Assembly (NCBI RefSeq): GCF_014075995.1
Contig: NZ_CP055153.1
Coordinates: forward strand, 2,542,001-2,606,000
Origin: Adhaeribacter radiodurans
GTDB lineage: Bacteria; Bacteroidota; Bacteroidia; Cytophagales; Hymenobacteraceae
Length of the DNA: 64,000 nucleotides
Direction: 5' to 3'
In this document: positions 24,528 to 53,472 of the stretch, piece by piece
Layout: each line of letters starts with the position of its first letter
Numbering within the stretch: the stretch's first letter is position 1
Notes under the pieces: generated by a model
Told to the model about the DNA's origin: nothing
Database searches by the model: none
Seen by the model: the letters and a program-made list of their open reading frames with translations, nothing else
Translations under genes and position numbers: made by a program

Positions 24528-24722
24528 TCTGTGGATCCTTTCCAAGTCTCCAGACTCCGGTGCTATCTAGTTTGACAAGGCTGAGTTTGCCTCGTTGCCG
24601 GCGGGCCTCGTTTGGCTCTTCCGGGCTGGTCTAAGCTTGTTTTGTTCGTGCCTCACAATGCCTCGTTCCTCGGCACCACAACCTTGGAAGGCCCTCCACA
24701 GCCAAACTGATGTCAATTGCTT
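24528..24722 (-). repeat. R1 repeat copy A (subtype 2)
   Basis: About 195 bases, reading leftward. Helix P1 pairs AGCCAAAC (24700-24707 on plus) with GTTTGGCT (24610-24617). P2 joins GGGC and TCCAAG with CTTAGA and GCCC (one C/A mismatch). P3 is TGCC/GGCA with a 9-base loop. The terminal hairpin P6 has CTT/AAG around a GGA loop. It is more GC-rich than its surroundings and has no conserved reading frame. Confidence 0.85.
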
Positions 24723-24910
24723 GTAGTTTCGGCTTTTCTGCCACACCTAGTATAAATTTGGAATGGATAAATTATTCGTAGTAGCCACAATCAACAGATA
24801 AAATTAATTTTAGTAGATTCTCTTGTTCTATGTAAGGCACAACTAAACCTTACATAATTCCGCTTAAGCAATTAAAAAATATTACTCTGAATGGGAGATA
24901 TCAGTAGCTA
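24723..24910. other. AT-rich spacer between R1 copies A and B
   Basis: About 190 bases between the facing 5' ends of two R1 repeats. It shares little with the spacer of the D/E pair beyond a short CAGTAGCTA before the plus copy. No gene was seen. Confidence 0.5.
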
Positions 24911-25104
24911 AGCGCAACAGACATCAGTTTGGCTGTGGAGCACCTGCTAGGGTTCCGGTGCCGCAGGCATTCCGCAGCAGAGCGAGGAAAGGAAGGCTAG
25001 CGAGGGCAGAAGAGCCAAACGAGGCCCGCCGGCCACGAGGCAAACTGGTTACTTCCCAAACAAGTTAGCACTTGAGCTTGGAGGCTGGAACAGACTTCAA
25101 AGAA
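24911..25104 (+). repeat. R1 repeat copy B (subtype 1)
   Basis: About 195 bases. P1 is GTTTGGCT (24927-24934) with AGCCAAAC (25013-25020). P2 is GCTAG with CTAGC (24946-24950 and 24997-25001). P3 is TGCC-GCA-GGCA (24959-24969). P5 is GGCC-CGCC-GGCC (25023-25034). P6 is 25080-25098 with CTG/CAG around a GAA loop. It is head-to-head with copy A. Confidence 0.88.
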
Positions 25105-25412
25105 AACGCTTACTAGCAAGCAAAATCTAGGATGGAATTTTGACACGATTTGGTATAATTTGGTAAATTAGACAATATTATGTTTTTGATTACATTCTTA
25201 AATTCTTCATCAATAAAGGCAACACGCTGTAAAGCACCAGCTCAACTTAAAAATTTACTAAATAACCGGACAAAATTAATTTAAGATGATTGATGGTTAG
25301 TTTGTAACTTTTATATTAGTGATTTTCAACCCTTAGGTTTACAAAAGTCTAACATCTAATATCTTGATACTAGTGTCTCTTTAATAATTTTAAAGTATTT
25401 TCACTCAACCAC
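25105..25412. other. AT-rich gap downstream of isoaspartyl peptidase gene
   Basis: About 300 bases between repeat B and the stop of the leftward isoaspartyl peptidase gene. No gene or strong terminator was seen. Confidence 0.35.
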
Positions 25413-26348
25413 TCATTCATAAATCCCCACGTAAGTAGGTTCATCGTTGCGTTTACTGGCGCGGTACATTCCTTCTGAGTTAAAGGTTAGCGCTATCTCG
25501 CCTTTGGTATTGAGCGCAATAAGTCCGCCCTCCCCTCCTTGCTTTTTTAGCTTCTCTTGTACTACATACAAACAAGCCTCCGTAATAGTTAAGCCTTTGT
25601 ATTCAACCAGGCACGATACATCATAGGCTACTACTGCCCGCATAAAATATTCGCCGTGACCGGTGCAGGAAACCGCACAAGTAGCATTATTGGCGTAGGT
25701 TCCCGCTCCTATTATAGGAGTATCTCCAACCCGGTTAAATTTCTTGTTGGTCATACCGCCCGTAGAAGTGGCCGCCGCTAAGTTGCCTGCAGCATCTAGA
25801 GCAACTGCTCCCACGGTTCCTAATTTCTTATCGGGGAGTATAGGAGCGCTATGATCTAGTTTTATTGAGTCTTCGGCTTTGGCAGCTTGCCATTGCTCGT
25901 ACCTGAAGGCATCAAAAAAATATTCTTCGGGTTCAAAGGCAACACCTACCTGGTGCCCAAAATTTTCGGCCCCTTCGCCGGTTAATAAAACATGTTCAGA
26001 ATGCTGCATTACCGCCTTTGCCAATGTTATAGGATTTCGCACCCGACGTACACCCGCCACTGCGCCAGCCATACCCGTAGCTCCGCACATAATAGCTGCA
26101 TCCAATTCGTGCTCACCCTGGTGGGTAAATACGGAGCCTCGGCCAGCGTTAAACAAAATGCAATCTTCCAGTTCCCGAACCGTTTCTTCTACTGCTTTCA
26201 GGGCACTACCACCTTTTGCCAGAATTTGGTGGCCTTTTTCTACCGCATCTTGTAAAGCTTGGTAATAAGCCCTTTCTTTTTCCTCTGTTAAGAGCGCCCG
26301 TAGAATGGTGCCGGCACCTCCGTGAATAGCAATAGCAATTGGGTTCAT
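25413..26348 (-). CDS. Isoaspartyl peptidase / plant-type L-asparaginase
   Basis: This N-terminal-nucleophile hydrolase of 311 residues should cleave itself before Thr178 in the LGTVGAVALD motif, and then hydrolyse beta-aspartyl dipeptides and asparagine. IHGGAG at the start, FNAGRGSVF, ELDAAIM and STGGMTNK...GDTPIIGAGTY are family signatures. The ATG at 26348 fits the usual MNPIAIAIHGG start; an in-frame TTG at 26357 adds three residues. With the convergent cyanophycinase it could complete cyanophycin breakdown to Asp and Arg. No signal peptide is present. Confidence 0.92.
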   Translation of the reverse strand: MNPIAIAIHGGAGTILRALLTEEKERAYYQALQDAVEKGHQILAKGGSALKAVEETVRELEDCILFNAGRGSVFTHQGEHELDAAIMCGATGMAGAVAGVRRVRNPITLAKAVMQHSEHVLLTGEGAENFGHQVGVAFEPEEYFFDAFRYEQWQAAKAEDSIKLDHSAPILPDKKLGTVGAVALDAAGNLAAATSTGGMTNKKFNRVGDTPIIGAGTYANNATCAVSCTGHGEYFMRAVVAYDVSCLVEYKGLTITEACLYVVQEKLKKQGGEGGLIALNTKGEIALTFNSEGMYRASKRNDEPTYVGIYE

Positions 26349-26425
26349 AAGCCACAAAAATCAAATTTTTAGATAGTAAATTAACTGTAAATATTCTAGT
26401 TAAAAGCAAATTTTAAGCTAGTAAA

Positions 26426-26446
26426 TACGTATATTTGTCATACGTA
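26426..26446 (+). promoter_or_regulatory. TACGTA pair overlapping a candidate -7 box for the DUF3127 gene
   Basis: TACGTA occurs at 26426-26431 and 26441-26446, and TATATTTG at 26430-26437 between them fits TAnnTTTG. A start about 40 bases before the ATG at 26479 would follow. The palindromes could be an operator. Confidence 0.4.
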
Positions 26447-26478
26447 AATTATATTTTTCATTCATAAAATTAGGTATT

Positions 26479-26862
26479 ATGTCTTTTGATGTTCAAGGAA
26501 GGTTGCACGAAATATTCGATGAGATTCAGGTAAGTGATAAATTCCGCAAGCGTGAATTTGTGCTGGAAATTCCGGATGGTTCTTTTACCCAGCACGTTAA
26601 GTTTCAACTGACGCAGGATAAATGCAGTGTGATTGATCAGTTTAAAATTGGTGATGAAGTAAAAGTAAATTTTAATCTTTCAGGTAAGCCTTTTACTAAA
26701 AACGGTACTACCATGTATTTTACCAACCTGCAAGCCTGGCGCGTTGAGAGTGCAGGTGCCGCCCCAGTAAACAACGGCGGAAATAACAGTAACCGTGCCC
26801 AACAACCAGCTACAAGTAGCCCATTCCTGAACGAAGAAATTGATAACGACTTGCCTTTCTAA
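26479..26862 (+). CDS. DUF3127 protein, SSB-like small protein
   Basis: This 127-residue protein matches the Bacteroidota family DUF3127, an OB-fold-like domain (residues 1-95; VQGRLHEIFDEIQVSDKFRKREFVLE and FQLTQDKCSVIDQF). A flexible N/Q/A-rich stretch and an acidic tail follow, ending DNDLPF. The tail resembles the C-terminal acidic tip of single-strand DNA-binding proteins, which recruits repair partners. A role in single-strand DNA handling is plausible but inferred. Single gene, with a very long-stem terminator. Confidence 0.85.
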   Translation: MSFDVQGRLHEIFDEIQVSDKFRKREFVLEIPDGSFTQHVKFQLTQDKCSVIDQFKIGDEVKVNFNLSGKPFTKNGTTMYFTNLQAWRVESAGAAPVNNGGNNSNRAQQPATSSPFLNEEIDNDLPF

Positions 26863-26872
26863 AGGTAAAATC

Positions 26873-26929
26873 AACTATAATAATGCAAAAAAGCGGGTAA
26901 ACTACCCGCTTTTTTGCATTATTATAGTT
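26873..26929. terminator. Terminator with a 27 bp perfect stem
   Basis: Bases 26873-26899 pair without mismatch to 26903-26929 with a 3-base loop; the GCGGGTA/TACCCGC core is flanked by A and T runs. It is active in either direction by sequence. Confidence 0.9.
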
Positions 26930-27101
26930 ATCCTTGTCGCGAACGTATATTGAAAATTTTTTTTGCCGTCGAGCTAAAGCAACATAAGCATTCAGTTGAT
27001 CAGCTAAATTAATCAAAATGTTACCGGCGTTTTAAAATTATTCACCCGTAAAACTAAGCTTCATGCTTTGCTGTTAAATAATTTGGAACAGAATTACAAA
27101 C

Positions 27102-27731
27102 ATGCACGACCTTTTGCGCTTAATTGCCATTGGTGAAAATGAGCAGTTGGATTTTAAGAAAACAATTACGCACCCGGATAAAATTGCTCGTACCTTAGTT
27201 TCTTTTGCCAACACCCAGGGCGGTATTCTGTTAGTAGGCGTGCAGGATAATGGTACTATTGTGGGAGTTGATCCGGAAGAAGAAAAACACACCTTAGAAT
27301 TAGCAGCTCAGTTCTACTGCGATCCTCCTCTTACATTAGATTACAAAGAAATAGAATACGAAAAACGACTGGTACTGGAAGTAATAGTTCCGGAAAGTTC
27401 GTTAAAGCCCCATTTAGCCAAAGTAAAAGAAAATGACTGGCGCGGCTACGTGCGGGTAAAAGACGAAAGTGTGCAATCGAGCAAAATGGTAAACAAAGCT
27501 TTACGCTCCGAAACTGCCTTAACCGAAGCCACCCGACCTTTAAACCTGGACAAACCCGATTACCAGGTATTAGAATATTTAAAAACAAACCGACGGATTA
27601 CTCTGGCGCAGTTCATGAAATTAGCCAATATATCGCAGCGTAGAGCTTACCGGATTCTGGTTAAACTGGTATTACATGGCTACCTCCGGTTGCACGATAA
27701 AGAAAAAGAAGACTATTATACATTAAGTTAA
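27102..27731 (+). CDS. AlbA_2/Schlafen-type domain protein with C-terminal winged helix
   Basis: The first 125 residues match the AlbA_2 (PF04326) nucleotide- or DNA-binding domain: EQLDFKKTI, TLVSFANTQGGILLVGVQDNGTIVGV and the strand-rich core. The last 55 residues (LEYLKTNRRITLAQFMKLANISQRRAYRILVKLVLHGYLRL) form a winged helix. Such two-domain proteins are usually regulators or nucleic-acid binders of unknown target. It is a single gene of 209 residues between two strong terminators. Confidence 0.82.
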   Translation: MHDLLRLIAIGENEQLDFKKTITHPDKIARTLVSFANTQGGILLVGVQDNGTIVGVDPEEEKHTLELAAQFYCDPPLTLDYKEIEYEKRLVLEVIVPESSLKPHLAKVKENDWRGYVRVKDESVQSSKMVNKALRSETALTEATRPLNLDKPDYQVLEYLKTNRRITLAQFMKLANISQRRAYRILVKLVLHGYLRLHDKEKEDYYTLS

Positions 27732-27769
27732 GTAAAAAGACACAGGTAAAAGTCCCGTGTCTTTTTACT
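27731..27769. terminator. Bidirectional terminator between convergent genes
   Basis: AGTAAAAAGACAC pairs with GTGTCTTTTTACT (13 bp), with a GG/CC extension inside. It serves the AlbA_2 gene and the leftward YwqK-like gene. Its first base is the last base of the AlbA_2 stop codon. Confidence 0.88.
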
Positions 27770-27798
27770 ATTTAAGAGCAATTGCAGGTAAATTTGTA

Positions 27799-28332
27799 CT
27801 AAAGTGATTGCAGTTGCGGGCCGGTTTGATACCGTTCAGCACTTTCTTTTTCTTCGTGGCCATCGGGGTAAATGGCTTTAACTGGCCAACCCGCTTCGTA
27901 AATTACTGTCTTGCGTAATGTACCGTCTTCATTATAATACTTCCAGTCGCCAATCCAGTAATAATGAATGCGTTTGGCTGTATTTTCCTGAACGGCTTGG
28001 CCTGTGTGCGCAATTTTTCCGTTTCGGTGGTAATAGGTAGCATTTAAAATACGAAAGTCTTTTTTTGAATCGTATTTTTCAACCAGGTACACTTGACCAT
28101 TCGGGTAAAAGTATTTCCATTTTTTTACCTGTTTGCCGTTTTTAAACCTGCCTTTACTCGTTATTACCTCCGGATTTTCTTTATCTTCTTTATACTTCCA
28201 ACGGCCAACGTGTTCTTTATTCTTGTTAATTTTATTTTTCCCAAAGATATCTTTTAATACCTGCGCTTCTGCCGCTGGTTTAGTGGCTATCCCAAGCACC
28301 AGCAGCAGCCCTAATCGAAGTAATAATTTCAT
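27799..28332 (-). CDS. Exported YwqK-family repeat protein (MORN-variant repeats)
   Basis: The 177-residue product has a signal peptide (about residues 1-23) and then repeats of the kind YFPNGKxxxxxxY: KYFYPNGQVYLVEKYD, YYHRNGKIAHTG, YYNEDGTLRKTVIYEAG, IYPDGHEEK. Databases often call this family a YwqK-type antitoxin, but the export signal argues against a cytoplasmic antitoxin. In Bacteroidota many such proteins are periplasmic or outer-membrane. No toxin gene is adjacent. Confidence 0.75.
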   Translation of the reverse strand: MKLLLRLGLLLVLGIATKPAAEAQVLKDIFGKNKINKNKEHVGRWKYKEDKENPEVITSKGRFKNGKQVKKWKYFYPNGQVYLVEKYDSKKDFRILNATYYHRNGKIAHTGQAVQENTAKRIHYYWIGDWKYYNEDGTLRKTVIYEAGWPVKAIYPDGHEEKESAERYQTGPQLQSL

Positions 28333-28743
28333 GTGTTTTTACTTTATTAATAATTGCTTGCTGTTTGATTAAATGTAAGCAAATTTCTAATGCAAAAAAA
28401 TAAGTAGATGCATTTTAAACGAACCGGGCTCTACATTATTGAACTCTAATTCAGGTATTTTAGTAAATTAAGTTTACATAAAAGCCTCTTTAACTTAACA
28501 AATTTCTGCATTATAAGTTACTTAAGCTTTTAATTTTATTTATGGATTTCCGGTAAGTTACTTCTTGTTAAAGCTTAGCTAAAAAAAATAATTTTTCGCG
28601 ACTTTCTGCTTAAAAATCTCTCAAATAAGTGCCTGTTTAAAGAGTCCATCCGTAGAAATATTCCGGCACCCTTATTAGGACTTACGCCTTACATTAGCTA
28701 AACTACCAATAGAATTACTGTTTCAAACGATTACTCTGTGCAT
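28333..28743. other. Divergent gap before phoH-like gene
   Basis: 411 AT-rich bases between divergent genes. No gene, tRNA or strong hairpin was seen; it should contain both promoters. Confidence 0.4.
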
Positions 28744-30123
28744 ATGACCGAAACCCAAAAAGCAAAAAGAGCTCCTGCCCGAAAAAAAACGGAAACTCCC
28801 CCTAAAACAAAGAAGATTTTTGTGCTGGATACCTCTGTTATTCTCTACGACCACAGTGCCGTAGAGCATTTTGAAGAAAATGATGTAGCTATTCCGATTA
28901 CTGTTTTAGAAGAACTCGACAATTTTAAAAAAGGTAACGATATTAAAAACTTTGAAGCCCGTGAATTTATTCGCTTCATCGACCAACTATCGCATGAAAA
29001 TAAGCTCCAGGATTGGTTGCCGCTTAACGGTAAAAACAAAGGTAACTTCCGGGTATTAATGACCCATGATTCACCGGTGGATGCCGAAAAAGTGTTTAAT
29101 GAGCGTAAAGCCGATCATAAAATTTTGAACTCAGCCTTGCAACTGCAGCACGAAATGCCGGACAGCAAGGTAATTCTGGTAACCAAAGATATAAACCTTC
29201 GCTTAAAGGCCCGCGCCTTAAACCTGCCCGCCGAAGATTATGAAACCGGTAAGGTGCAAAACGTAAATGCTTTATATACCGGTAACGATCGTCTGGAAAA
29301 TGCCCCGGCTACCTTAATAAATGAGTTGTACGAAACCGGCATATCTACCAACCTCGAAGTATTAACGCAAGAACCCCAGGACAATCATTATTATATTTTA
29401 AAGAGTTTTAAAAATTCGGTGTTGGCTTATTATAATCCGGTAGAACGGCGACTTGAGCGGGTAGATAAATTAACGGGCTACGGTATAAAACCCCGTAATG
29501 CCGAACAAGCATTTGCTTTACACGCCATTATGAACCCGAATGTGAAATTAGTAACTATTCAGGGGGTAGCTGGTACGGGTAAAACTTTACTTACTTTAGC
29601 GGGTGCTATTGAACAGCGGCGCAACTACAAGCAAATTTACTTGGCGCGCCCCATTGTTCCGCTCAGTAACCGCGACATTGGCTTTTTACCCGGCGATATT
29701 AAATCAAAAATAAATCCGTACATGGAGCCGCTCTGGGATAACCTTAAGTTTATTCAGAACCAATTTATCGAAACCAGTAAAGAACACCAGAAATTAAAAG
29801 AATTAACCGAACAAGAAAAATTAGTAATTACGCCGCTGGCTTATATTCGGGGCCGGAGTTTATCGAACATTTTCTTTATCGTGGATGAGGCGCAAAACCT
29901 TACTCCCCACGAAATTAAAACTATAATTTCCCGGGCTGGCGAAAATACTAAAATTGTGTTTACCGGTGATATTTACCAAATTGATACTCCTTACCTGGAT
30001 ACGCAAAGCAACGGGTTATCTTATTTAATTGATAAAGCCAAAAATCACCCATTGTACGCGCACATTACTTTATTAAAAGGAGAACGGTCGGAATTAGCCA
30101 ATCTGGCCAACGACCTTTTATAA
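28744..30123 (+). CDS. PhoH-family ATPase with N-terminal PIN domain
   Basis: The 459-residue product joins a PIN ribonuclease-like domain (about 20-155; FVLDTSVILYDHSA opens with the conserved acidic residue, then EELDNFKKG and VTKDINLRLKAR) to a PhoH ATPase domain (about 240-455; Walker A GVAGTGKT near residues 274-281, Walker B FFIVDEAQNLTP, and FTGDIYQID). This fusion is thought to be an RNA helicase/nuclease (PhoH2-like). The ATG at 28744 is chosen; a GTG two codons upstream is possible. Single gene with terminator. Confidence 0.9.
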   Translation: MTETQKAKRAPARKKTETPPKTKKIFVLDTSVILYDHSAVEHFEENDVAIPITVLEELDNFKKGNDIKNFEAREFIRFIDQLSHENKLQDWLPLNGKNKGNFRVLMTHDSPVDAEKVFNERKADHKILNSALQLQHEMPDSKVILVTKDINLRLKARALNLPAEDYETGKVQNVNALYTGNDRLENAPATLINELYETGISTNLEVLTQEPQDNHYYILKSFKNSVLAYYNPVERRLERVDKLTGYGIKPRNAEQAFALHAIMNPNVKLVTIQGVAGTGKTLLTLAGAIEQRRNYKQIYLARPIVPLSNRDIGFLPGDIKSKINPYMEPLWDNLKFIQNQFIETSKEHQKLKELTEQEKLVITPLAYIRGRSLSNIFFIVDEAQNLTPHEIKTIISRAGENTKIVFTGDIYQIDTPYLDTQSNGLSYLIDKAKNHPLYAHITLLKGERSELANLANDLL

Positions 30124-30141
30124 TTATATAGTATTAAGATG

Positions 30142-30176
30142 GCCTGCTCTGTTTATCCGGAGCAGGCTTTTCATTT
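30142..30176 (+). terminator. Terminator after PhoH gene
   Basis: GCCTGCTC pairs with GAGCAGGC across a 10-base loop, followed by TTTTCATTTT, 18 bases after the stop. Confidence 0.83.
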
Positions 30177-30370
30177 TGGTACTATCGTTTTTAATAAAGT
30201 TTAAATTGAATTTTACTTTTTCCTTTAAGAAATAAATTATTTTTGGGTTTATAAGTAACTGTTACGGATAAGAACCTTCTGGTAATTTTTCTTGCAATAA
30301 TCAGAAAAGTAAGTGCATTTGTTTTAAAACAATTTTGCAATTAAACCGAATTAATGATCTAGACCAAACC

Positions 30371-30862
30371 ATGCACCTTATTGAGCTAACGGCCATCTAT
30401 CCTTTAGACTACAAAGCTTTTTTTCAGCAAGGCTTGCGCGACCATCCTGATTGTTTTCGTACTAGTCCGGGTGATGAAAGATGGGCTTATTTCCCAACCG
30501 AAGGAACTCCGGAAAGTTTTACTTTGGCGGCTATTACTGAACAACAAGAGTTAATGGGCGTAGTAAGTTTTGAACGCGAAACTTCCCGCAACATGCGGCA
30601 TAAAGCTTTACTGTACCGCATGTACGTGAGCAAACAATTTGCTGGTAATGGAATCGGGAAATTTCTTATTCAAAATACGCTAGATCGGGCCCGCCAATTA
30701 CCCGGTCTGGAACAGGTCTTTCTTACGGTAATTGCCAGTAATGTAAAAGCTAAAAGCCTGTACAGTAGCTTTGGCTTTGAGCAGTTTTCGCACGAAAAAA
30801 ATGCTATTAAAACTTCTGCCGGTATTTATTACCACGAAGAACAAATGGTTTTATTTTTATAA
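30371..30862 (+). CDS. GNAT-family N-acetyltransferase
   Basis: The 163-residue product follows the GNAT fold: LRDHPDCFRTSP in the N-part, the acetyl-CoA pyrophosphate loop in VSKQFAGNGIGKFLIQ (near residue 100), and a C-terminal VIASNVKAKSLYSSFGFEQ segment typical of acetylation of small amines or protein N-termini. The substrate is unknown. The ATG at 30371 is preferred over a TTG at 30335, because the first strand begins shortly after it. It is convergent with the next gene. Confidence 0.82.
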   Translation: MHLIELTAIYPLDYKAFFQQGLRDHPDCFRTSPGDERWAYFPTEGTPESFTLAAITEQQELMGVVSFERETSRNMRHKALLYRMYVSKQFAGNGIGKFLIQNTLDRARQLPGLEQVFLTVIASNVKAKSLYSSFGFEQFSHEKNAIKTSAGIYYHEEQMVLFL

Positions 30863-30903
30863 AAATTGTTCGGGTAACCAGCGAGGCTTTCTAATTAATA
30901 ATA

Positions 30904-31419
30904 TTAAATCTGATAACGATCTTTTAATATTTGCAAATGATGAAATTCGTGGGCGGCTATTATGGTTAGTATGCCCCTTACGGTTGCGTTGTTGTTATTC
31001 ATGGTACCGGCTCTTTGCAAGGTAGTTTCATCAAAACTCGCGAATAAAGTAATGTTACCATGTCTTTGTAACTGGTACTCTTGCAGCAAGCTATTTATTT
31101 CCCGTTTACTAAATTGAGCAGCCGCAACGTAATCATTTTCCTCGAACCCGGGCAAAGATTGTTTTTCGCCGCGGGCAATACAAAGTGCCCGATACGCCAT
31201 AATGCGTTCGGTATCAATCATGTGGCCGAATAATTCTTTTACGGTCCATTTACCAGATTTATAAGCAAAATTTTGCTTTTCCGATGAAAGCGAGGTCAGC
31301 AATTTACTAATATCATCTGCCTGTTCCTGCAATCGAACCAGAATATCTCCTTCCGGTATTTGCTGTAAATAACGATGATAAAAAGGCGCTACCTCAGAAA
31401 GGGGGGCTTTGGAAATCAT
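30904..31419 (-). CDS. DinB_2-family protein
   Basis: The 171-residue helical protein matches the DinB_2 family. The three likely metal ligands are His in KELFGHMIDTERI and the two His of IAAHEFHHLQIL near the C-terminus. Related proteins include bacillithiol transferases, but the substrate here is unknown. It is a second DinB-superfamily member after 8607-9134. The gene is convergent with the GNAT gene and no strong hairpin separates them. Confidence 0.82.
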   Translation of the reverse strand: MISKAPLSEVAPFYHRYLQQIPEGDILVRLQEQADDISKLLTSLSSEKQNFAYKSGKWTVKELFGHMIDTERIMAYRALCIARGEKQSLPGFEENDYVAAAQFSKREINSLLQEYQLQRHGNITLFASFDETTLQRAGTMNNNNATVRGILTIIAAHEFHHLQILKDRYQI

Positions 31420-31552
31420 AGCTTTATGTATTTATAAAAAAATCTGAAAATAAAAGATTTATATCAAAGTAAAAGTAAAAATCAATATAGCATCTCCGCT
31501 AGCTAATTGTAAAATTTTTCCGTATAAAACCCTAAATTAACTTTATAGCCCT

Positions 31553-32005: not shown

Positions 32006-32029
32006 CTCCTTGGGTTAACAAAAGGCTTT

Positions 32030-32057: not shown

Positions 32058-32074
32058 TCCGGTAAAGTTTTATT

Positions 32075-42444: not shown

Positions 42445-42827
42445 GAATTAAATTTTTTAAAAAATAGGTTTTACGCAATCTGGCATCAGCAGGCTTGCAT
42501 CGGAACCGGTATTTATCATTTATGAAGGCAAAAATGAGACGGGTTTTAATGCAACAAATCGAACGACAAAAATTTAAATGAAGATAAATCCGTACGCTGA
42601 TTCCATAATTCCGGGGCAAAGGTAAGCTTTTTATTTACATTTTAGGCTTATTCCTTTTGCTTAATGATAATATAACAAGCAAGGCTACGTTTTAATTCAT
42701 TCAGTTCTTCACTCTTCTGTAGAATAATTCTTAATTTATTTCCACTATGGCGCGGAAGTTACTTCCGTGACTTAACAGATTAACTAAAAGCTTTCGTTCG
42801 CATGGCTGGCTGATTATCTTTGATTTC
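42445..42827. other. Upstream region of deaD with one palindromic R2 repeat
   Basis: No gene was seen. The leader of deaD lies on the left. A single R2 unit, ACTATGGCGCGGAAG continuing to CTT at 42744-42773, contains the palindrome CGGAAGT-T-ACTTCCG. The unit is also present at both ends of the element at 51390-51517. Confidence 0.55.
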
Positions 42828-42945
42828 TGATTAAAGTTGTTTCATTGCTGAAGTATTTGTTCTTTTTGTCTTGACACAAAAAGAACCAAAAAAGTCAAGA
42901 CGCTAAAAACTCGCTGACCGCTCAAACAGTTTAGCGTCGATGATT
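42828..42945 (+). repeat. R3 repeat, copy 1 (possible H-type pseudoknot)
   Basis: GTTCTTTTTG (42859-42868) pairs with CAAAAAGAAC (42877-42886). The loop segment GTCTTGAC (42868-42875) can pair with GTCAAGAC (42894-42901). GACGCTAAA (42899-42907) pairs with TTTAGCGTC (42930-42938). A second copy at 55120-55242 in opposite orientation keeps all three helices. Confidence 0.8.
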
Positions 42946-43185
42946 GCACCTGGCTGAAGTTGTATGTTGCATAGCATGCAGGCAAAGTTTTAAAAAATAA
43001 AAATTACGCTCCGTGTCATTCAGGAGGAACCTTGTTAGCTACGAAACATCTACACAGCAATAAAAGTAGCTCTCTCCTATTGCAAGTTTGATTTTTTTAA
43101 CTTTTCTAAATTCCAGCCCTTTAAAACAGTAAAAAACAACACAGTAAAAAACAACTTGCTAACAAACAAAATAGCAGCAGCTAAG
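42946..43185. other. Gap between R3 copy 1 and R1 copy C
   Basis: AT-rich sequence without a gene. A 15-base direct repeat ACAGTAAAAAACAAC occurs in tandem at 43126-43140 and 43141-43155. Confidence 0.5.
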
Positions 43186-43385
43186 AGCAACTGACACCAG
43201 TTTGGCTGTGGAGCACCTGCCAGGGTTCCGGTGTGCTGCAGGCACATTTCGCAGCGGAGCGTGGAAAGGAAGGCTGGCGAGTGCGGAAGAGCCAAACGAG
43301 GCCTGCGGCCAGGAGGCAAAACTTGAAATATCCAACTAGATAGCAACTGTGCCTGGAGACGGGAACCGGCTGTAAAAATAACGCT
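43186..43385 (+). repeat. R1 repeat copy C (solo, subtype 1)
   Basis: P1 is GTTTGGCT with AGCCAAAC. P2 is GCAC plus GCCAG (43213-43223) with CTGGC plus GTGC (43274-43284). P3 is TGTGC with GCACA (43232-43246). P5 is GGCC-TGC-GGCC. P6 has CGG/CCG around a GAA loop. No inverted partner was found to its left. Confidence 0.86.
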
Positions 43386-46958: not shown

Positions 46959-47079
46959 AATTTAACATTATTGACGACTTAAAATCATTAATAAGTTTAG
47001 TGTTACATTACAGAAATACAAATATTAACCACTGTTTCATAAATCAACCAAGAGCGACTACTTTGGAGTTTTTTATTTA

Positions 47080-48144
47080 TTACTCCCTTGGCTTTATGGC
47101 CGCAATCAGTCCATAATCCAGTAGAGTAGGAATTTCGTCTGTTGTGGGTACTAAGCCGGCTTTTGTAAACCAGCTTCGGTATTCTTTTCTGCTGTAGCAA
47201 CGGCCTTTGGTTCCTAAAAAAAGCATCGCCGAATAATCCGTTACGGCTAAAGGTCCATCCAGGGTATCATTTAAAAAAGCATCATGTACCCACAAGGAGC
47301 CGTTCGGTTTAAGTGCTTTAGCAAATTTCACCGCCAGCTTTTCGCAGGTTTCTACGGGCCAGTCATGAAACAGACTGGCCGCCAGTAAAACATAAGCAAC
47401 CGGAAGTTCATCGGTCAGCATATCGCCGGGCATAAAGGTTAACCGGTTTTGTAGGGAAGTAGCCTCCGCCGGATGGTCCTGACAGAATTCCGTGAATAGT
47501 TCGGCGGCTATTTTCAGCACTTCGGGCCGGTCGAAAACAATGGCTCGGGAAGTTGGATTATTCCGCAACCATTGATAGGTATAATAACCGGTGCCGCCGG
47601 CCACATCCAGTAATAGCCCGGGTTGTTGGGTAATTTTATCAGCTACCAGGGGCGAAAGAAACTTAGCCCTACCCGCTAAGGCCATGGTAAAAAATCGGGC
47701 GGTTTCCGCTTCATCCATCGGCGAAGGCGCGTCTTCATCTTTTACGTATGAAAATCCTTGATTGGTATTTACTGGTCCGTCATTTTGTAACCATTCCACC
47801 ATTCTTATCACCCCCGGATCATCTTTTTCCAAACCGACGTAGCCCAGCAGATTGGTGGTGTTGGCAGTAGTTAAATATTTTCCGGTTTCCGTCAGGCTCA
47901 GTTTTCCTGCGGCATCATATTCCAGCAAACCCATGGCGCACAAAGCCGGAAACAAAACTAGGGCGGGTCGGTCTTTTAAATGCAGCCGCTCCTGCAATTC
48001 CGGTATGGACAATGCGCCTTGGCTTAACTCTTCGAAAACCGGTAAATAATGCGTGGCGGCAACTAAAAGCTGAGAGCTCGCCTTAGCTCTTAGAATTCGG
48101 GTAATGGGTGCCAGGTCTAACATGTTTGCTGATATTTTTTTCAA
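47080..48144 (-). CDS. SAM-dependent O-methyltransferase (hydroxyindole/flavonoid type)
   Basis: The 354-residue protein has the small dimerisation domain (about 10-100) and the SAM-binding domain: LLLDVAGGTGYYTYQWL holds motif I, LTFMPGDM is motif III, and ASLFHDWPVETCEKLAVKFAKALKPNGSLWVHD the conserved region with the catalytic-type His in FHDW. Plant-type and hydroxyindole O-methyltransferases share this layout. The substrate is unknown. It lies in reverse between the addA- and addB-like genes. An in-frame ATG at residue 8 is an alternative start. Confidence 0.88.
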   Translation of the reverse strand: MKKISANMLDLAPITRILRAKASSQLLVAATHYLPVFEELSQGALSIPELQERLHLKDRPALVLFPALCAMGLLEYDAAGKLSLTETGKYLTTANTTNLLGYVGLEKDDPGVIRMVEWLQNDGPVNTNQGFSYVKDEDAPSPMDEAETARFFTMALAGRAKFLSPLVADKITQQPGLLLDVAGGTGYYTYQWLRNNPTSRAIVFDRPEVLKIAAELFTEFCQDHPAEATSLQNRLTFMPGDMLTDELPVAYVLLAASLFHDWPVETCEKLAVKFAKALKPNGSLWVHDAFLNDTLDGPLAVTDYSAMLFLGTKGRCYSRKEYRSWFTKAGLVPTTDEIPTLLDYGLIAAIKPRE

Positions 48145-48474
48145 TTATAATTTAAAAAATGGGGCATCAAAAATTTAAAATAAATTAAGAATTAGCGTAA
48201 AGGTTTCGGTTTACCATGAGTTTTAAGCGAAGGCACTCTCCTCGCCTCTTGCAAAATCAAACATAAACATTTCTACTCGGTTGAATATCCAAAATCGAAA
48301 AGTCTTATTCGGAATAATACTGTTTTTAAAACTGCTGACGCGAAGCCACTTAGTTTTATTCCGGTTATTTCTTATGGTTTATGTTTTTCAGAAGCTTAAA
48401 TTTAAATTAGCATTTACTTTTTTAGAGACTGACATACAACAGTTCTAAAAAGCAATTTTCAAAACCATCCCGAA
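48145..48474. other. Divergent gap before addB-like gene
   Basis: 330 AT-rich bases between divergent genes. No gene or strong hairpin was seen. Confidence 0.4.
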
Positions 48475-51366
48475 ATGAAAACCTTCCTGCACCAGGCAGC
48501 CGAATATATTTACAGCAAACACGCCGAAAACATCAGCCAGATTTGCGTGATTTTACCGACCCGGCGGGCGAGCATTTATTTTAAAAATGCCTTGGCCCAA
48601 GTAGCCAGCGAAGGTATCTGGTCGCCGGAGGTGTCGTCAATGGAGGATTTTGTTACCCGGTTGGCTCGGGTAGAAGTGCTGGAACCCATTCACCTGCAAC
48701 TCGATTTGTTCGATATTATGCAGGAGCTGGATCCGAATATTGAGTTCGACCAGTACGTTACCTGGGCGAGTACTTTACTGGAAGATTTCAGCCGCATGGA
48801 CCAGGAAGTAGTGAATACCGGCAAGCTGTTTGAGTACTTAAGTGAGGCCAAAGCCCTGGAACGCTGGGACCCGAAACGCGCCGGCTTCGATATTTCGCCC
48901 ATGCTCAAAAAATACTTTAAGCTTTGGGACAACTTGCAGGAAGCCTACACCCGGCTGAAGAAAAAATTAAAAGCCGAAAAGCAAGCGTACATTGGCATGG
49001 CGTACCGGCATGTGGCCGAAAACGTGCTGGACATTGTGCAAAAAACCACCTGCTCCCAGTTCATCTTTGTCGGCCTGAATGCCTTGAGTCGGTCGGAACA
49101 AGTTATTATTCGCACTTTATTAAAAGAACACAAAGCTGAGGTTTTGTTCGATTCGGATGATTTTTACATGGATGAAAATACCCAGAATCGGGCCGGGTAT
49201 TTCTTAAAACGCTACCGAAAGCAATGGCAACTCCCCGACTGGAAATGGCAGCAAAACCACTTACTCACCAGCACCAAAGAAATTAACGCCATTGCAGTAG
49301 CCAACGCCAGCATGCAAGGCAAAGTAGCCGGACAGTTGCTGCAGCAAATCCGGCAGGAAAACCCGCAGGCGCAGGTCGCCATTATTTTGCCCGACGAAAC
49401 CATGCTGCTACCGGTGCTGCATTCCATCAGCGAAGATATTCCGGACTACAACGTTACCATGGGGCTTACCTTTAAAGGCACGCCCCTTTACAACCTGATT
49501 GATTTACTGTTCGAACTGCATTTAACCGGCGTTATTCAGCCTAATGACGCGGGCTACAAAGTAAACCGCTACCATTACCTCACGGTCCAAAAAATACTCA
49601 GTCACCCGTTTATCCGGCGCTACGAGCAATATTACAATACCATCACCGAAGATGCCGCGGAGCAAAATTTAATTTCCCAAGTTTTAGCCGAGATCATCAC
49701 CCAAAACAAAGTACTGGTTTCGGCGAAAGAGTTGATTGATGCGGGCAAAGAACATCCTATTTTTAAAGCTTTATTCCGGACCTGGCGCAACTGCGACGAT
49801 ATCATTGCTTCTTTTTACAACCTCATTGACTTACTCAAGCAAGTATATCAGTTTCAGGCCGAAAACCCCATTGAAACCGAGTACCTGTATATATTCTATA
49901 CGCTGGTGAAGCGACTGGATTCTATTTTCGATTGCCGGGAACAACGCATTTCGGTGCGCAGTTTTAAAAAGTTTTTGTACGAAAACATTGCGCAAACCCG
50001 CCTGCCGTTTAGCGGCGAACCCATTTCGGATATTCAGGTAATGGGTTTCCTGGAAACCCGGGCGCTGGATTTTGAAAATTTAATAATTTTATCAGTCAAC
50101 GAAAACGTTTTGCCGCAGCCAAAAAGTCACAAATCGCTGATGCCCTACGACGTGCTGAAAACTTTTGGTTTGCCCACTTACGCCGAGCAAGAAAGCATTA
50201 CATCGTATTATTTTTACCGCTTGCTGCAACGAGCCAAACGCGTAAACTTGCTGTACATTTTACCTTCCGACACTTACGGTTCTGGCGAGAAAAGCCGATT
50301 TATTCTGCAATTGCAACACCATCTGGTACCGGCCAATCCCAATATTACTTTCCGGGAATTAACTGCGGTAGTAGAACAACACGAAAGCAAAACCTACGAG
50401 CCCGATATTGTTATTCAGAAAGACGAGCAAGTGCTGGCTAGCCTTAAAAAAGCGCTGCAAAAAGGCTTGTACCCGTCGCACCTAAACATGTACATTAACT
50501 GTTCGCTGCAATATTACTTCAACAAAATTGCCGGCCTGAAAGAAACCGACGACATTGAAGAGAAAATTGGTGCCGACCAGTTCGGAAATATTGTACACAA
50601 AGTGCTGGAGGATTATTTTAAACCTTTCCTCGAAAAGAAACTACTGGTGACTGCCCAAGACATTGACCGCATGCGGGCGGTGTTGCCGCAACGGGTTCAA
50701 CTGGCTTTTAAAACCGGTGTTCTGGGCAACGTACCGGAGCAAGGCATGAATTACTTACTCCTGAAAGTTGCTACGCAGGTGCTGGAAACTTACCTGAGAA
50801 AACAATCCGAATCGCCGGATTTACCGCTACGCATTATCAGTCTGGAACAAGTGCTGGAAACGGTATTGGAGGTAAACTTGGAGGATGAAGTAATCAAAGT
50901 TAAAATAGCCGGTAAAGCCGACCGCATTGATAGTACCGCTAAAGCTACGCGGGTCATTGATTATAAAACCGGCCTGGTGAACGCGGCCGATTTAAAAATC
51001 AAACAAGAACACATCGCGGAAAATTTACTCACCAATCGCAAATACGAGAAAGTGCGGCAACTGTGGCTGTATCGCTACTTGATGGCCAAAAAGATGCAAG
51101 CCGAAGGTAGTCTGGATAATTCGTTGTTTCAGCCAGAAATTGAAGCTGGAATTATATCTTTCCGGAATTTAAATGCCGGATTTATGACTTCCGATATTGC
51201 TTTTTCCGAAAACAAGCCCGAAACTTTGGAAGCGTACATTCAGCATTCCGAAGATTACCTGAGACTTTTTGTCCAGGATATGCTAAACCCCGACATCCCT
51301 ATCCGGAAGACCAACGACCTGGAAGTTTGCCAATATTGCATCTACCGGGGAATCTGCGCCCGGTAA
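48475..51366 (+). CDS. AddB-like PD-(D/E)XK nuclease/inactive helicase
   Basis: The 963-residue protein matches the Bacteroidota AddB-like partner of AddA. The nuclease core has IDYKTG with Asp829 and Lys831. Four Cys (near residue 676 and Cys952, Cys955 and Cys961 in CQYCIYRGIC) match the iron-sulphur cluster that clamps the AddB nuclease domain. The N-terminal region is a degenerate UvrD fold with ILPTRRASIYFKNAL. The last 13 codons recur just downstream, across a 128 bp inverted-repeat element. The gene end therefore looks restored or replaced. Confidence 0.88.
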   Translation: MKTFLHQAAEYIYSKHAENISQICVILPTRRASIYFKNALAQVASEGIWSPEVSSMEDFVTRLARVEVLEPIHLQLDLFDIMQELDPNIEFDQYVTWASTLLEDFSRMDQEVVNTGKLFEYLSEAKALERWDPKRAGFDISPMLKKYFKLWDNLQEAYTRLKKKLKAEKQAYIGMAYRHVAENVLDIVQKTTCSQFIFVGLNALSRSEQVIIRTLLKEHKAEVLFDSDDFYMDENTQNRAGYFLKRYRKQWQLPDWKWQQNHLLTSTKEINAIAVANASMQGKVAGQLLQQIRQENPQAQVAIILPDETMLLPVLHSISEDIPDYNVTMGLTFKGTPLYNLIDLLFELHLTGVIQPNDAGYKVNRYHYLTVQKILSHPFIRRYEQYYNTITEDAAEQNLISQVLAEIITQNKVLVSAKELIDAGKEHPIFKALFRTWRNCDDIIASFYNLIDLLKQVYQFQAENPIETEYLYIFYTLVKRLDSIFDCREQRISVRSFKKFLYENIAQTRLPFSGEPISDIQVMGFLETRALDFENLIILSVNENVLPQPKSHKSLMPYDVLKTFGLPTYAEQESITSYYFYRLLQRAKRVNLLYILPSDTYGSGEKSRFILQLQHHLVPANPNITFRELTAVVEQHESKTYEPDIVIQKDEQVLASLKKALQKGLYPSHLNMYINCSLQYYFNKIAGLKETDDIEEKIGADQFGNIVHKVLEDYFKPFLEKKLLVTAQDIDRMRAVLPQRVQLAFKTGVLGNVPEQGMNYLLLKVATQVLETYLRKQSESPDLPLRIISLEQVLETVLEVNLEDEVIKVKIAGKADRIDSTAKATRVIDYKTGLVNAADLKIKQEHIAENLLTNRKYEKVRQLWLYRYLMAKKMQAEGSLDNSLFQPEIEAGIISFRNLNAGFMTSDIAFSENKPETLEAYIQHSEDYLRLFVQDMLNPDIPIRKTNDLEVCQYCIYRGICAR

Positions 51367-51389
51367 TAAAAAGAGTTTTTGAAGCCTTG

Positions 51390-51517
51390 TATGGCGCGGA
51401 TTTACTTCCGTGACTTATAACATTTATAAACCACAGATTTCTAATTTTTAGAAAAAAAGATAAACATTTTTTTTAAGAGGTTATTCTAAAAGTCACGGAA
51501 GTAACTTCCGCGCCATA
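51390..51517. mobile_element. 128 bp R2 inverted-repeat element (MITE-like) at the addB 3' end
   Basis: TATGGCGCGGA followed by TTACTTCCGTGACTT at 51390-51416 is repeated in reverse at 51490-51517, with one small length difference. The 73-base centre is AT-rich and has no ORF. The outer parts match the R2 unit at 42744-42773. No encoded transposase and no clear short target duplication were seen. The displaced gene end begins one base beyond the element. Confidence 0.65.
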
Positions 51518-51559
51518 GTATGCTAATATTGCATTTACCGCGGCATTTGCGCCCGCTAA
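51518..51559 (+). pseudogene. Displaced second copy of the addB-like gene's last 13 codons
   Basis: Read in frame this gives V-C-stop-YCIYRGICAR-stop, matching the end of the upstream gene (VCQYCIYRGICAR-stop at 51325-51366) except for Q to stop (CAA to TAA). Seven of 42 bases differ, six of them synonymous third positions. Such a pattern indicates a once-functional allele end, not a recent duplicate. Confidence 0.75.
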
Positions 51560-51577
51560 TATCTTAAATATTGTAAA

Positions 51578-51613
51578 AAGAAAAGCAGTTCCGGTTTCAG
51601 AACTGCTTTCTTT
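51578..51613. terminator. Bidirectional terminator
   Basis: AAAGCAGTTC pairs with GAACTGCTTT (10 bp) across an 8-base loop. On the minus strand the following CTTTTTAC fits termination of the LysM gene. Confidence 0.8.
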
Positions 51614-51648
51614 ATCATCATTCAATTTTTAAATTTTTATATTTTCAG

Positions 51649-51969
51649 CTACCGCGGAATCACAAATTTTTGACCCGGATGAATCAGGTTCGGATCTTTT
51701 ATTTGGTCCAGGTTAGCTTGGTGTATTTTATGCCATTGTTGGGCATCGCCGTATAATTCTTTCGCAATTTTAGACAAGGAATCACCACTTTTTACGGTGT
51801 AATATTCTTTTTGCGCCGCAGCCGGAGCAGCGGTTGGTTGCGGTACATCGCGGTTGTTGGCTTGCGCCTGGTTGCCGGTAGGTGGTACGTTAAAGGCGTT
51901 TTTATTCGGGTCGGCTTTCGGCTGAGCCGGTTTTTCTTCCCCTTTTTTTAAGAAATCAAAAAGTCCCAT
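51649..51969 (-). CDS. LysM-domain protein
   Basis: The 106-residue product (ATG at 51969) has a basic start (MGLFDFLKKGEEKPA), a Pro/Ala/Gln-rich linker and a C-terminal LysM domain (about 55-105): YYTVKSGDSLSKIAKELYGDAQQWHKIHQANLDQI...IHPGQKFVIP. LysM binds peptidoglycan glycans. There is no signal peptide. Such BON/LysM-type small proteins in Bacteroidota are often cytoplasmic or peripheral, with an unknown role. A longer in-frame start at 52041 is less likely. Confidence 0.85.
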   Translation of the reverse strand: MGLFDFLKKGEEKPAQPKADPNKNAFNVPPTGNQAQANNRDVPQPTAAPAAAQKEYYTVKSGDSLSKIAKELYGDAQQWHKIHQANLDQIKDPNLIHPGQKFVIPR

Positions 51970-52431
51970 AGTTTTTAGTATCTGGTATATTAGTCTGTAA
52001 TCAAAAGAGCAATCTTTTAGATGTTGCCTTTTATTAAACATACGCTACACGTTTATATTATGTTCTAATTCAGAGAAGCAATTACCGGTAAAGCTTGGTG
52101 CCTATTGGCTTTATACTGACAATATTAAGTTACCACTAGAGAAAGGCATACTTTTAAAAAATTTAAAAATCCATGCCTCTTAAAATCTTCTAGCAAAATC
52201 TAACCGGACTTTAATCAGATGATCAAATTACCCGCAATTGGTTTAGGACCTTCAAAAATTTTAAAAATCATTGGCTATAACTTAATTATCTGGGAATTAC
52301 CACTATAAGAGGCTTTACTCCGGGTTCATACTAAATTAATCCCGGCCTTTTAACTTAATCCCGATTCTGACGTAATATTCAAAAACTAAAGTATAACCAG
52401 ATACTTGCAAACCCAATTTAACTACATAACT
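51970..52431. other. Divergent gap upstream of a lipoprotein gene
   Basis: 460 AT-rich bases, no gene seen. TTAATCCCG occurs twice, 19 bases apart (52336-52344 and 52355-52363), about 70 bases before the lipoprotein ATG; possibly a regulatory direct repeat. Confidence 0.4.
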
Positions 52432-52842
52432 ATGAAACTCTTTAACCTAAAAAATTACCTGCTGCTGCTGAGCTTTACCCTCCTGCTTTTTGGCGCTGGC
52501 TGCCAGAAAAAGGATACTGTGGGGAACGCCGGCATGCTTACCGGCGCCGATAGTAAAGTCTGGAAAACCGAAAAAGAAACTACGGCTTCCGGTGAAAAAG
52601 ACAAAGTAACCAAAGAAGAAAAACAACAGGAAATTCAATTTTTCGCGAATGGTTCGTTCAGTATGCGTTCGCCCACGCAAAACGCTTCCGGTAAATGGAC
52701 CTACGATGCTATGGCTAAGAATTTATCGTTGCAGTTCGTTGGTTCGGATTTAACCGAAAATTTTCAGGTATTGAATTTAACGGATGATGAATTAAAGCTG
52801 CAAGCCGCCGATGGTTCGCAAATGATTTTGGAAACAGAATAA
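52432..52842 (+). CDS. Lipocalin-like lipoprotein
   Basis: The 136-residue product starts at ATG 52432 (an earlier in-frame start at 52405 precedes the signal). The signal peptide ends LFGAGC with a lipidated Cys. The mature domain is beta-rich (VWKTEKET, EIQFFANGSFSM, SGKWTYDAMAKNLSLQF, FQVLNLTDDELKLQ) and resembles the small lipocalin-like domain common in Bacteroidota. Function unknown; probably outer-membrane-anchored. A hairpin terminator follows 20 bases later. Confidence 0.78.
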   Translation: MKLFNLKNYLLLLSFTLLLFGAGCQKKDTVGNAGMLTGADSKVWKTEKETTASGEKDKVTKEEKQQEIQFFANGSFSMRSPTQNASGKWTYDAMAKNLSLQFVGSDLTENFQVLNLTDDELKLQAADGSQMILETE

Positions 52843-52862
52843 GTTTATTTTAAATTCTATAT

Positions 52863-52891
52863 GAAGGCTGCCCATTCGGCAGCTTTTTTAT
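52863..52891 (+). terminator. Terminator after lipocalin-like gene
   Basis: AAGGCTGCC-CATTC-GGCAGCTTTTTTA: a GCTGCC/GGCAGC stem, a 5-base loop and a T run. Confidence 0.85.
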
Positions 52892-52913
52892 TTATTAGCC
52901 TTTTTTACATACG

Positions 52914-53112
52914 GTTCTTCTTTGGAGTCTTTACAAGCCTCCATGCTCCGGTGCTATCTAACTTGCTAACTTCAAGTTTTGCCTCATGGCCGGCGGGCCT
53001 CGTTTAGCCAGTTCGGGCGGTCTAAGCTTCCATTCCTCGCTCCGCTGCGGAATTTTGCTGCGCAAAACCAGAACCTTAGAAGGCCCTCACTAGCTAAACT
53101 GGTGTCAGTTTC
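52914..53112 (-). repeat. R1 repeat copy D (subtype 2)
   Basis: Reading leftward: P1 GTTTAGC pairs with GCTAAAC (53093-53099 with 53002-53008), where both arms carry the change seen against the other copies. P2 is GGGC plus TCTAAG with CTTAGA plus GCCC. P3 is TTTTGC-GCA-GCAAAA. P6 has GGAG and CTCC arms and CTT/AAG around a GTA loop. Confidence 0.87.
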
Positions 53113-53274
53113 GTTTAGCTTCCGCTATACTTATAATAACCTTTAGAATGATAAGCAATCTTATAATTACTTTATACTTACTTTATACTTACTTTATACT
53201 TACATTGAATTATTGAAGGTTAGCTCAAACACAATCACAGAAACAGTCTAAATAAGTAAAGACAGTAGCTACTA
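53113..53274. repeat. Spacer of R1 pair D/E with an 11-base tandem repeat
   Basis: About 160 bases between the facing 5' ends of copies D and E. TACTTTATACT is repeated three times exactly at 53168-53200. Confidence 0.6.
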
Positions 53275-53472
53275 GCAACTGACATCAGTTTGGCTGTGGA
53301 GCACCTGCCAGGGTTCCGGTGCTGCCTAGCAGCATTCTGCAGCGGAGCGAGGAAAGGAAGGCTGGCGAGTGCGGAAGAGCTAAACGGGGCCCGCCGGCCA
53401 TGAGGCAAACTGGGTACTTGTCAAACTAGGTAGCACCAACGCCTGGAGGCGGGAACCGGTTCCAAAGAATTA
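53275..53472 (+). repeat. R1 repeat copy E (subtype 1)
   Basis: P1 GTTTGGCT pairs with AGCTAAAC (one G-T wobble). P2 is GCAC plus GCCAG with CTGGC plus GTGC. P3 is TGCTGC-CTA-GCAGCA. P5 is GGCC...GGCC. P6 has CGG/CCG around GAA. It is head-to-head with copy D. Confidence 0.87.

Follow-up and report, generated by a model that had tools for sequence, protein, structure and literature searches.

R1, a dispersed repeat family of Hymenobacteraceae with a conserved branched fold on one strand

We found that R1, seen in five copies in a 64-kb stretch of Adhaeribacter radiodurans DNA (the window, that is, the whole 64,000-nucleotide stretch analysed), is a dispersed non-coding repeat family of ~200 nt per copy (~206 model positions). 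Computation established the family, its fold, the strand that carries the fold, the loops at its tips, its inverted doublets and its turnover between species. The best explanation, to which we give an even chance, is that R1 is a non-autonomous, interspersed REP/REPIN-like element recognised through one strand, the complement of the one first aligned, in folded single-stranded form, most likely as DNA. The assignment of the functional strand, the dispersed nature of R1, the doublets and the lean toward DNA are new here.

The R1 family and its copies in the window

CM scoring detected at least 150 R1 copies in the A. radiodurans genome. All 150 listed matches span model positions 1–206, as do 45 of the 48 sequences of the cross-genus set. 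The CM was built from a first set of 64 copies (matches >75 bits). A 144-copy set from the same genome was defined by E ≤ 1e-25, which omits one 95-bit copy, and eight of the 150 listed copies were absent from the fetched sequences. R1 matches were present in 59 of 120 genomes of the family Hymenobacteraceae, with Pontibacter as named carriers, and the sister genome G003 contained at least 109 matches above 65 bits when 150 of 1,327 candidates were scored. The Pontibacter set (at least 80 loci, 82 copies) was picked by an exact pattern over helix P2 and one arm of P3–P4. A plasmid search with copy A gave no matches.

The sequence-only reading had placed five copies between positions 24528 and 53472 of the window, and all five were recovered there with CM scores of 178–206 bits, the copies themselves being among the 64 sequences used to build the CM. 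Copy A (24524..24728; 206.1 bits on the window + strand; type 2 arm GGTCTAAG) and copy B (24906..25107; 198.4 bits on the − strand; type 1 arm GCTAG/CTAGC) form an inverted doublet around a 177-nt spacer (24729..24905), which both functional 5′ ends face. Copy C (43179..43382; 178.5 bits on the − strand) is a type 1 single. Copy D (52915..53120; type 2; 199.8 bits on the + strand) and copy E (53267..53472; type 1; 198.9 bits on the − strand) form a second doublet with a gap of 146 nt (53121..53266). The functional strand of these copies, assigned from the family-wide wobble, tip loops and folding, is probably − for A and D and + for B, C and E. Beyond what was first noticed, the genome holds well over 100 further copies, and the arrangement of A/B and D/E recurs throughout it. 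The outer flank on the copy B side of A/B is of the alpha type, which recurs in other doublets, and a separate repeat, R2, adjoins copy C on its functional 5′ side in the alignment.

No Rfam 15 family matched the whole 64-kb window at the gathering score, and searches at E ≤ 10 with three stretches from three genera gave sub-gathering matches only. The best match over R1, MIR7533 (39.1 bits, E 2.8e-6), extends across the D/E doublet and was read as a generic long hairpin, its score being far under the gathering cut-off of 230. A coding origin was rejected because just four ORFs of at least 100 aa overlap copies and the neighbouring protein families do not recur. The largest cluster among 886 ORFs within 1.5 kb of 248 loci comprised four loci of one genome; a second clustering of neighbours yielded one cluster of seven stop-to-stop frames overlapping or abutting R1, and otherwise pairs.

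Fold, functional strand and tip loops

The R1 fold comprises 46 base pairs, and the functional strand forms a long branched hairpin (P3–P4–P5a/P5b), a GGCC hairpin (P2) and a 3′ hairpin (P1). The helices that had been called P1, P2 and P3 from the five copies are real and correspond to P3, P4b and P5b of this model. In the 64 A. radiodurans copies, 92.8% of the pair cells pair versus 84.0% in shuffles, pairing drops to 31–52% when the arms are slid by 1–3 columns, and 252 double changes were counted, the mean in shuffles being 75.5. In the 48 cross-genus sequences, double changes were found in 41 of the 46 pairs, with 426 double-change cells versus 134 in shuffles, although this alignment leans toward the model because it was fitted to it. 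The observation holds far beyond chance. Covariation within the genome and across genera supports the earlier proposal that pairing is under selection in a structured RNA or a DNA-hairpin element. Neither of the outcomes named as fatal to it, covariation no higher than background or a strong hit to a known insertion sequence or protein-coding family, occurred: covariation exceeded the shuffles, and there was neither an Rfam gathering match nor a recurrent adjoining protein family.

The pairs are almost purely Watson–Crick with common G-C/C-G flips, and some unpaired positions are conserved across genera. Since rare private changes in the A. radiodurans copies show no wobble preference (GU 63, AC 66), it is chiefly the spreading lineages, not every copy, that seem to be under selection. 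Purifying selection on every copy was suggested by copy D, whose same-site copy in G003 has a core identity of 0.99, but is not general: across 22 loci compared with G003 at the same site and in the same orientation, each having 900 bp or more of matching flank, core identity ranged from 0.61 to 0.99 with a median of 0.76. The putative closing helix P0 lacks wobble support. A bistable switch between the 5′ P3 arm and a second arm beyond P2 is not claimed because its signal was not clearly above shuffles in Pontibacter and modestly above them elsewhere.

Wobble asymmetry, gene orientation and single-strand folding concur in identifying the strand complementary to the first alignment direction as the functional one. 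In the first direction, A.C outnumbered G.U in the core helices of Pontibacter (34 versus 3, excluding a pair with A.C in 79 of 81 copies; 32 to 2 outside the selection pattern), A. radiodurans (122 versus 63) and the cross-genus set (38 versus 11), which places G.U/G.T on the complement. Because G.U, not A.C, counts as a pair in the model alignments, these lean against such an A.C excess. Helix P1 showed little asymmetry (28 to 22), and that of P0 was reversed (30 to 52). A tRNA control of three tRNAs only (GU 3, AC 0) was set aside. When folded with DNA parameters, the complement outperformed the other strand in recovering the conserved pairs, in 59 of 60 Pontibacter copies (sampled from 82) and in 52 of 70 A. 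radiodurans copies (sampled from 144); RNA and DNA parameters recovered the fold about equally. The single-stranded DNA fold of copy D had a z of −3.88 on the functional strand versus −1.82 on the other, and its RNA fold had a z of −2.46.

The tips of three hairpins (P1, P5a and P5b) are mostly GNA or GNNA, on the functional strand only. Among copies in which the script detected a 3–4 nt cap, such loops were present in A. radiodurans at 119/136 P1, 120/141 P5a and 87/138 P5b tips and in Pontibacter at 72/80 P5a and 68/82 P5b tips, and the other strand gave 3, 0, 0, 0 and 0 for the same five classes. ANA caps account for 37 of the 138 A. radiodurans P5b tips (AAA 23, AGA 8, ATA 3, ACA 3). P2 does not end in a GNA/GNNA loop on the functional strand. 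On the opposite strand of the Pontibacter copies a GNNA loop caps P2 in 81 of 82 cases, a loop partly fixed by the selection pattern. A control with terminator-like hairpins (five triloops, none GNA) was too small for use. Titles in the reference lists of PMC11101458 and PMC9969394 call GNA triloops and d(cGNNAg) tetraloops stable or extraordinarily stable DNA loops. Because loops of the GNA/GNNA kind are known to cap DNA hairpins stably, folded single-stranded DNA appears to be favoured over RNA.

Gene context and inverted doublets

The functional strand was the gene strand in 20 of 27 tandem cases of the first gene-context set, which skipped five groups without an ORF on one side, and in 21 of 30 of the Pontibacter set (66 of 82 copies). 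This bias would suit transcribed RNA and is counted against DNA. The gene 3′ end faced the functional 5′ end in 47 to 9 and 52 to 14 cases, respectively. It is possible, if rather doubtful, that R1 works as RNA, as a mobile 3′-UTR or small-RNA element that is co-transcribed with the upstream gene or expressed from a promoter within the doublet spacer. Such an element might, for example, stabilise mRNA ends or bind a protein, and might have spread through its usefulness or an RNA intermediate. Both orientation biases fit this explanation, as do the wobble asymmetry, the RNA fold of copy D and the recovery of the Pontibacter fold by RNA parameters as well as by DNA ones. It is opposed by the GNA triloops and the mostly non-GNRA tetraloops (the RNA form, GNRA, makes up only 9 of 42 Pontibacter P5b GNNA loops), by the rare A. 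radiodurans changes without wobble preference and by the lack of an Rfam gathering-score match. The 3′ end also argues against it, being in the examples inspected a hairpin followed by A-rich DNA with no intrinsic-terminator shape.

Inverted doublets hold 84 of the 150 listed A. radiodurans copies. All 42 pairs of R1 neighbours no more than 1.5 kb apart have one orientation, with the functional 5′ ends toward the spacer, and three further, weaker doublet partners follow the same order; no doublet was found among the 82 Pontibacter copies listed. Many doublets have their spacer and outer flanks in common, and their two outer ends resemble each other in sequence, as would be expected if R1 were carried passively within MITE-like composites (alpha and beta families) that an ordinary DDE transposase mobilises at their outer ends. 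We consider this improbable, since 56 of 144 copies are singles, their nearest R1 lying more than 1.1 kb away, and most listed singles are without composite ends, a few keeping one (e.g. 1351220, 3325062, 3794832 and 5326743). Moreover, the Pontibacter copies lie in a different composite, and a 46-pair fold kept across genera is not expected of a passenger. A further reading, in which template switching or quasi-palindrome correction keeps the arms complementary and the fold is not selected, would fit the Watson–Crick pairs and their flips but is very improbable, because symmetric correction predicts no strand asymmetry, whereas wobble, tip loops and folding pick one strand, and because some unpaired positions are conserved.

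Comparison with known mobile elements

If R1 is a REP/REPIN-like element, a putative trans-acting enzyme would recognise the folded strand and spread the element as singles or additionally, in Adhaeribacter, as inverted doublets within longer composites. Lineages with the recognised fold would spread and stranded copies would decay, and insertions would survive mainly downstream of genes. Counted against this reading are the absence of target duplication at the 56 A. radiodurans singles, the absence of replication-strand bias among singles (33/33, p 0.98), the absence of R1 (E ≤ 1) within ~1.5 kb of 22 Y1_Tnp loci (PF01797) in seven genomes and the lack of Pontibacter doublets. The wobble of P1 and P0, the P2 loop, the A. 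radiodurans P5b ANA caps and the equal recovery of the fold by RNA and DNA parameters are also counted against it.

We tentatively suggest, with less confidence, that R1 folds as single-stranded DNA into a large branched structure with GNA caps at its tips, kept in at least four genera of one family and amplified to >100 copies in some genomes by the putative enzyme. It would then represent a new class of mobile elements recognised as single-stranded DNA, several times the size of REP, and REP-like elements could be large branched folds. A 46-pair covarying fold in hundreds of copies, with its strand and DNA-type caps, offers a concrete bait for the putative binding protein, as one oligonucleotide per strand, DNA or RNA.

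Integron attC sites and Vibrio VCR vary in sequence, conserve their structure and use one folded strand. By this general description R1 is similar, its sequence varying while its structure is kept with one strand folded, but it is dispersed outside cassette arrays. R1 resembles REP, BIME and REPIN in being high-copy, intergenic, palindromic and non-coding, with a strand-specific hairpin and with singles and inverted doublets, although the doublets typical of REPIN and BIME are found in A. radiodurans and in none of the listed Pontibacter copies. REP are described as palindromes of 20–40 bp (PMC3733652) with the tetranucleotide GT[AG]G at the base of the fold (PMC6006769), whereas R1 is ~200 nt and multi-branched. 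The functional 5′ end of the 56 singles has only a weak GTAG consensus (G in 37/56 and T in 41/56 before a conserved AG); GTAG was absent from the 5′ end of three Pontibacter examples inspected. R1 differs from REPtrons, in which REP flank a Y1/RAYT (TnpA-REP) transposase gene of the same genome, in its absence from the 22 Y1_Tnp loci. Three such loci were inspected: two have an identical ~30-bp palindrome, arranged in inverted orientation, and at the third there is an 18-nt inverted repeat with a different sequence. IS200/IS605 ends are single-strand hairpins without larger target duplication (PMC6006769, PMC2817692); R1 shares both features but shows no replication-strand bias, nearby transposase or observed autonomous parent. 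Enterobacterial RU-1, RU-2 and RU-3 are small intergenic mobile sequences of 103–168 bp (PMC2759123). R1 is also a small intergenic repeat but belongs to another lineage. We know of no branched, covarying fold reported for the RU sequences. MITEs are marked by terminal inverted repeats and target duplication; the R1 composites have similar outer ends, and the 56 singles showed no duplication.

R1 would, if its proposed nature is correct, offer a way to mark genomic change in Pontibacter and related bacteria. The D/E site was aligned in G003, G005 and G006, and the matches in G001, G002 and G004 were compared there by a BLAST check only. One site carries R1 in G000, G003 and G006 but is empty in G005, which is counted in favour of the REP/REPIN-like reading.

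The R1 family and its conserved fold

The positions at which the sequence-only reading had placed five copies of the non-coding ~200-nt repeat R1 were confirmed. A single covariance model matched copies A (24524-24728), B (24906-25107), C (43179-43382), D (52915-53120) and E (53267-53472) at 178-206 bits, these five being among the 64 sequences from which the model was built. The model search found at least 150 copies scoring at least 95 bits in the window's own genome, and three weaker-scoring partners beyond these. In the sister genome G003, at least 127 matches, at least 109 of them above 65 bits, were found among the best 150 of 1,327 candidates, which were scored. R1 was present at E ≤ 0.001 in 59 of 120 genomes and four of six genera of the family Hymenobacteraceae, including Pontibacter, in which P. 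populi and P. fetidus are among the carriers. An order-wide sample yielded R1 in 6 of 194 genomes at E ≤ 1e-4; five are from the same family, and the sixth match, in another family, is weak (31.6 bits). Rfam 15 gave no match at gathering score across the window and only sub-threshold matches with relaxed thresholds. Among the papers listed in searches of an open-access collection, which leaves out most subscription journals, none had a title or abstract opening describing R1.

A 46-pair structure was built by hand on the 64 copies. Paired cells amounted to 92.8%, compared with 84.0% in shuffles and 31-52% with the arms slid, and double-side changes numbered 252 against 75.5 in shuffles. When 48 cross-genus sequences were aligned by fitting to the R1 model, both sides changed in 41 of the 46 pairs, with 426 double-change cells against 134 (shuffled) and 27-96 (slid). 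Helix P3 pairs GTTTGGCT with AGCCAAAC in the window's own genome; its Pontibacter arms are GTCTTCGGG/CCCAAAGAC and those of genus g2 GTTTCTG/CAGAAAC. Double-side changes are present too in helices P4, P4b, P5a and P5b. The outer closing helix, P0, is tentative.

Functional strand and the choice between DNA and RNA

In the direction in which the copies were first aligned, A.C outnumbered G.U in the core helices of Pontibacter (34 vs 3, binomial p 6e-8, omitting a single P3 pair, found as A.C in 79 of 81 copies), of the own genome (122 vs 63, p 9e-6) and of the cross-genus set (38 vs 11, p 7e-5); these p values are indicative only because the R1 copies are related. Outside the core, the counts were 28 vs 22 in P1 and 30 vs 52 in P0. 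An A.C pair becomes G.U or G.T when read on the complement. Folded alone, the complement recovered the conserved pairs better in 59/60 Pontibacter and 52/70 own copies with DNA parameters, and in 51/60 and 42/70 with RNA parameters. Copy D folded as single-stranded DNA (ssDNA) gave z -3.88 on the complement and -1.82 on the opposite strand. The wobble asymmetry and the single-strand folding therefore indicate the complement as the functional strand, the orientation being minus for A and D and plus for B, C and E.

On this strand, hairpin tips were GNA or GNNA, with N free, in 119/136 (P1), 120/141 (P5a) and 87/138 (P5b) own-genome copies and in 72/80 (P5a) and 68/82 (P5b) Pontibacter copies; further copies had no 3-4 nt cap (own P1 8, P5a 1, P5b 6; Pontibacter P5a 2, P5b 0). 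The opposite strand showed such tips in three own P1 and in no P5a or P5b of either set. Examples occur in additional genera as well. Only 9 of 42 Pontibacter P5b GNNA loops were GNRA. Two works cited in PMC11101458 and PMC9969394 call GNA triloops and d(cGNNAg) tetraloops (extraordinarily) stable loops of DNA, and a GAA triloop within a DNA construct has been termed ultra-stable. The tips, the scarcity of GNRA and the known stability of such DNA loops thus favour ssDNA, although the P2 loop departs from the GNA/GNNA rule and 37/138 own P5b have ANA caps. Terminator-like hairpins, taken as a control for tip loops, included five triloops, too small a set. By energy parameters, RNA and DNA could not be told apart: the mean probability of pairing was 0.631 (DNA) vs 0.583 (RNA) for own copies and 0.753 vs 0.765 for Pontibacter copies. 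On balance, we lean modestly towards R1 acting as ssDNA rather than RNA.

Doublets, composites and neighbouring repeats

Among the 150 own-genome copies listed, 42 neighbour pairs lay within 1.5 kb, and all 42 had the same inverted order, as in A/B and D/E, with both functional 5' ends pointing toward the spacer. Gaps were mostly 170-190 bp (range 122 to 1000). The three weaker partners show this order at about 240-590 bp; including them adds one neighbour on the same strand, about 1.3 kb away. By arm type, 41 doublets comprised 26 of type 1 (TGC) with type 2 (CCC), five of type 2 with type 2, none of type 1 with type 1, and ten having an arm of neither type. At least two composite families, alpha and beta, take in many own-genome doublets and have spacers and outer ends in common. 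These MITE-like composites (e.g. at locus L020:6700-7500) have outer ends similar to TACCAAATnGTA. The D/E spacer (about 53165-53215) holds a short tandem repeat of TTTATACTTAC units, shorter in G003.

No doublets were found among 82 Pontibacter copies, several of which sit within a different composite with flanking palindromes. The octamer AACTATAG is very frequent at 80 Pontibacter loci (L228-L307): counting both strands, 490 occurrences lie no more than 350 bp from an R1 copy and 753 lie elsewhere. It seems to join repeat modules together.

R2, a further dispersed repeat (about 150-330 bp; 42743-43069 and 55096-55271), is strongly conserved near GACGCTAAACTGTTCGAGCG..GTCTTGACTTTTTTGGTTCTTTTTGTGTCAAGACAAAAAGAAC. 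In the ten aligned examples R2 lay 5' of R1 on the functional strand, in most of them 90-130 bp away. A ~30-bp palindrome, CTATGGCGCGGAAGTTACTTCCGTGCCTT, lies close to copy C and most other aligned R1/R2 sites; inverted copies of it also flank Y1 transposase genes of the own genome (L108:1193-2081) and G006 (L355:1198-2053) in a REPtron-like arrangement.

Transposases, gene context and turnover

R1 behaves like REP/REPIN, small palindromic repeats with their Y1 transposase (RAYT), but differs in the tests of REP size and RAYT. Y1 transposase genes were present in all seven genomes examined (four in the own genome, 18 in the six others), and none of these 22 loci had R1 at E ≤ 1. Among three loci inspected, two were REPtron-like and shared one ~30-bp palindrome; the third had a shorter inverted repeat. 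Because its size and the results at the Y1 loci depart from those of REPs, R1 was classed as a distinct variant among the interspersed palindromic repeats rather than a REP. No recurrent gene family adjoined R1 among 886 ORFs within 1.5 kb at 248 loci, and R1 singles showed neither target duplication (56 copies) nor replication-strand bias.

R1 copies avoid divergent gene pairs: with genes taken from simple ORF calls, not annotation, 4/98 own-genome placements were divergent vs 16/84 background pairs, and 5/66 Pontibacter copies vs 65/367. Between tandem genes, the functional strand was the gene strand in 20/27 (own) and 21/30 (Pontibacter).

The D/E site carries the same doublet in G003, with the copy D core 0.99 identical, and no R1 in genome G005. 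In G006 (locus L140), the left copy is a remnant and the right copy is type 2, vs type 1 in the own genome and G003, possibly through conversion between R1 copies. When the copies at 22 shared sites were compared with those of G003, their cores were 0.61-0.99 identical (median 0.76), and in six comparisons core identity was below that of at least one 200-bp flank. R1 sites can persist while the resident copy diverges or is replaced. One Pontibacter site spans about 770 bp, including R1, in P. fetidus vs about 120 in P. populi.
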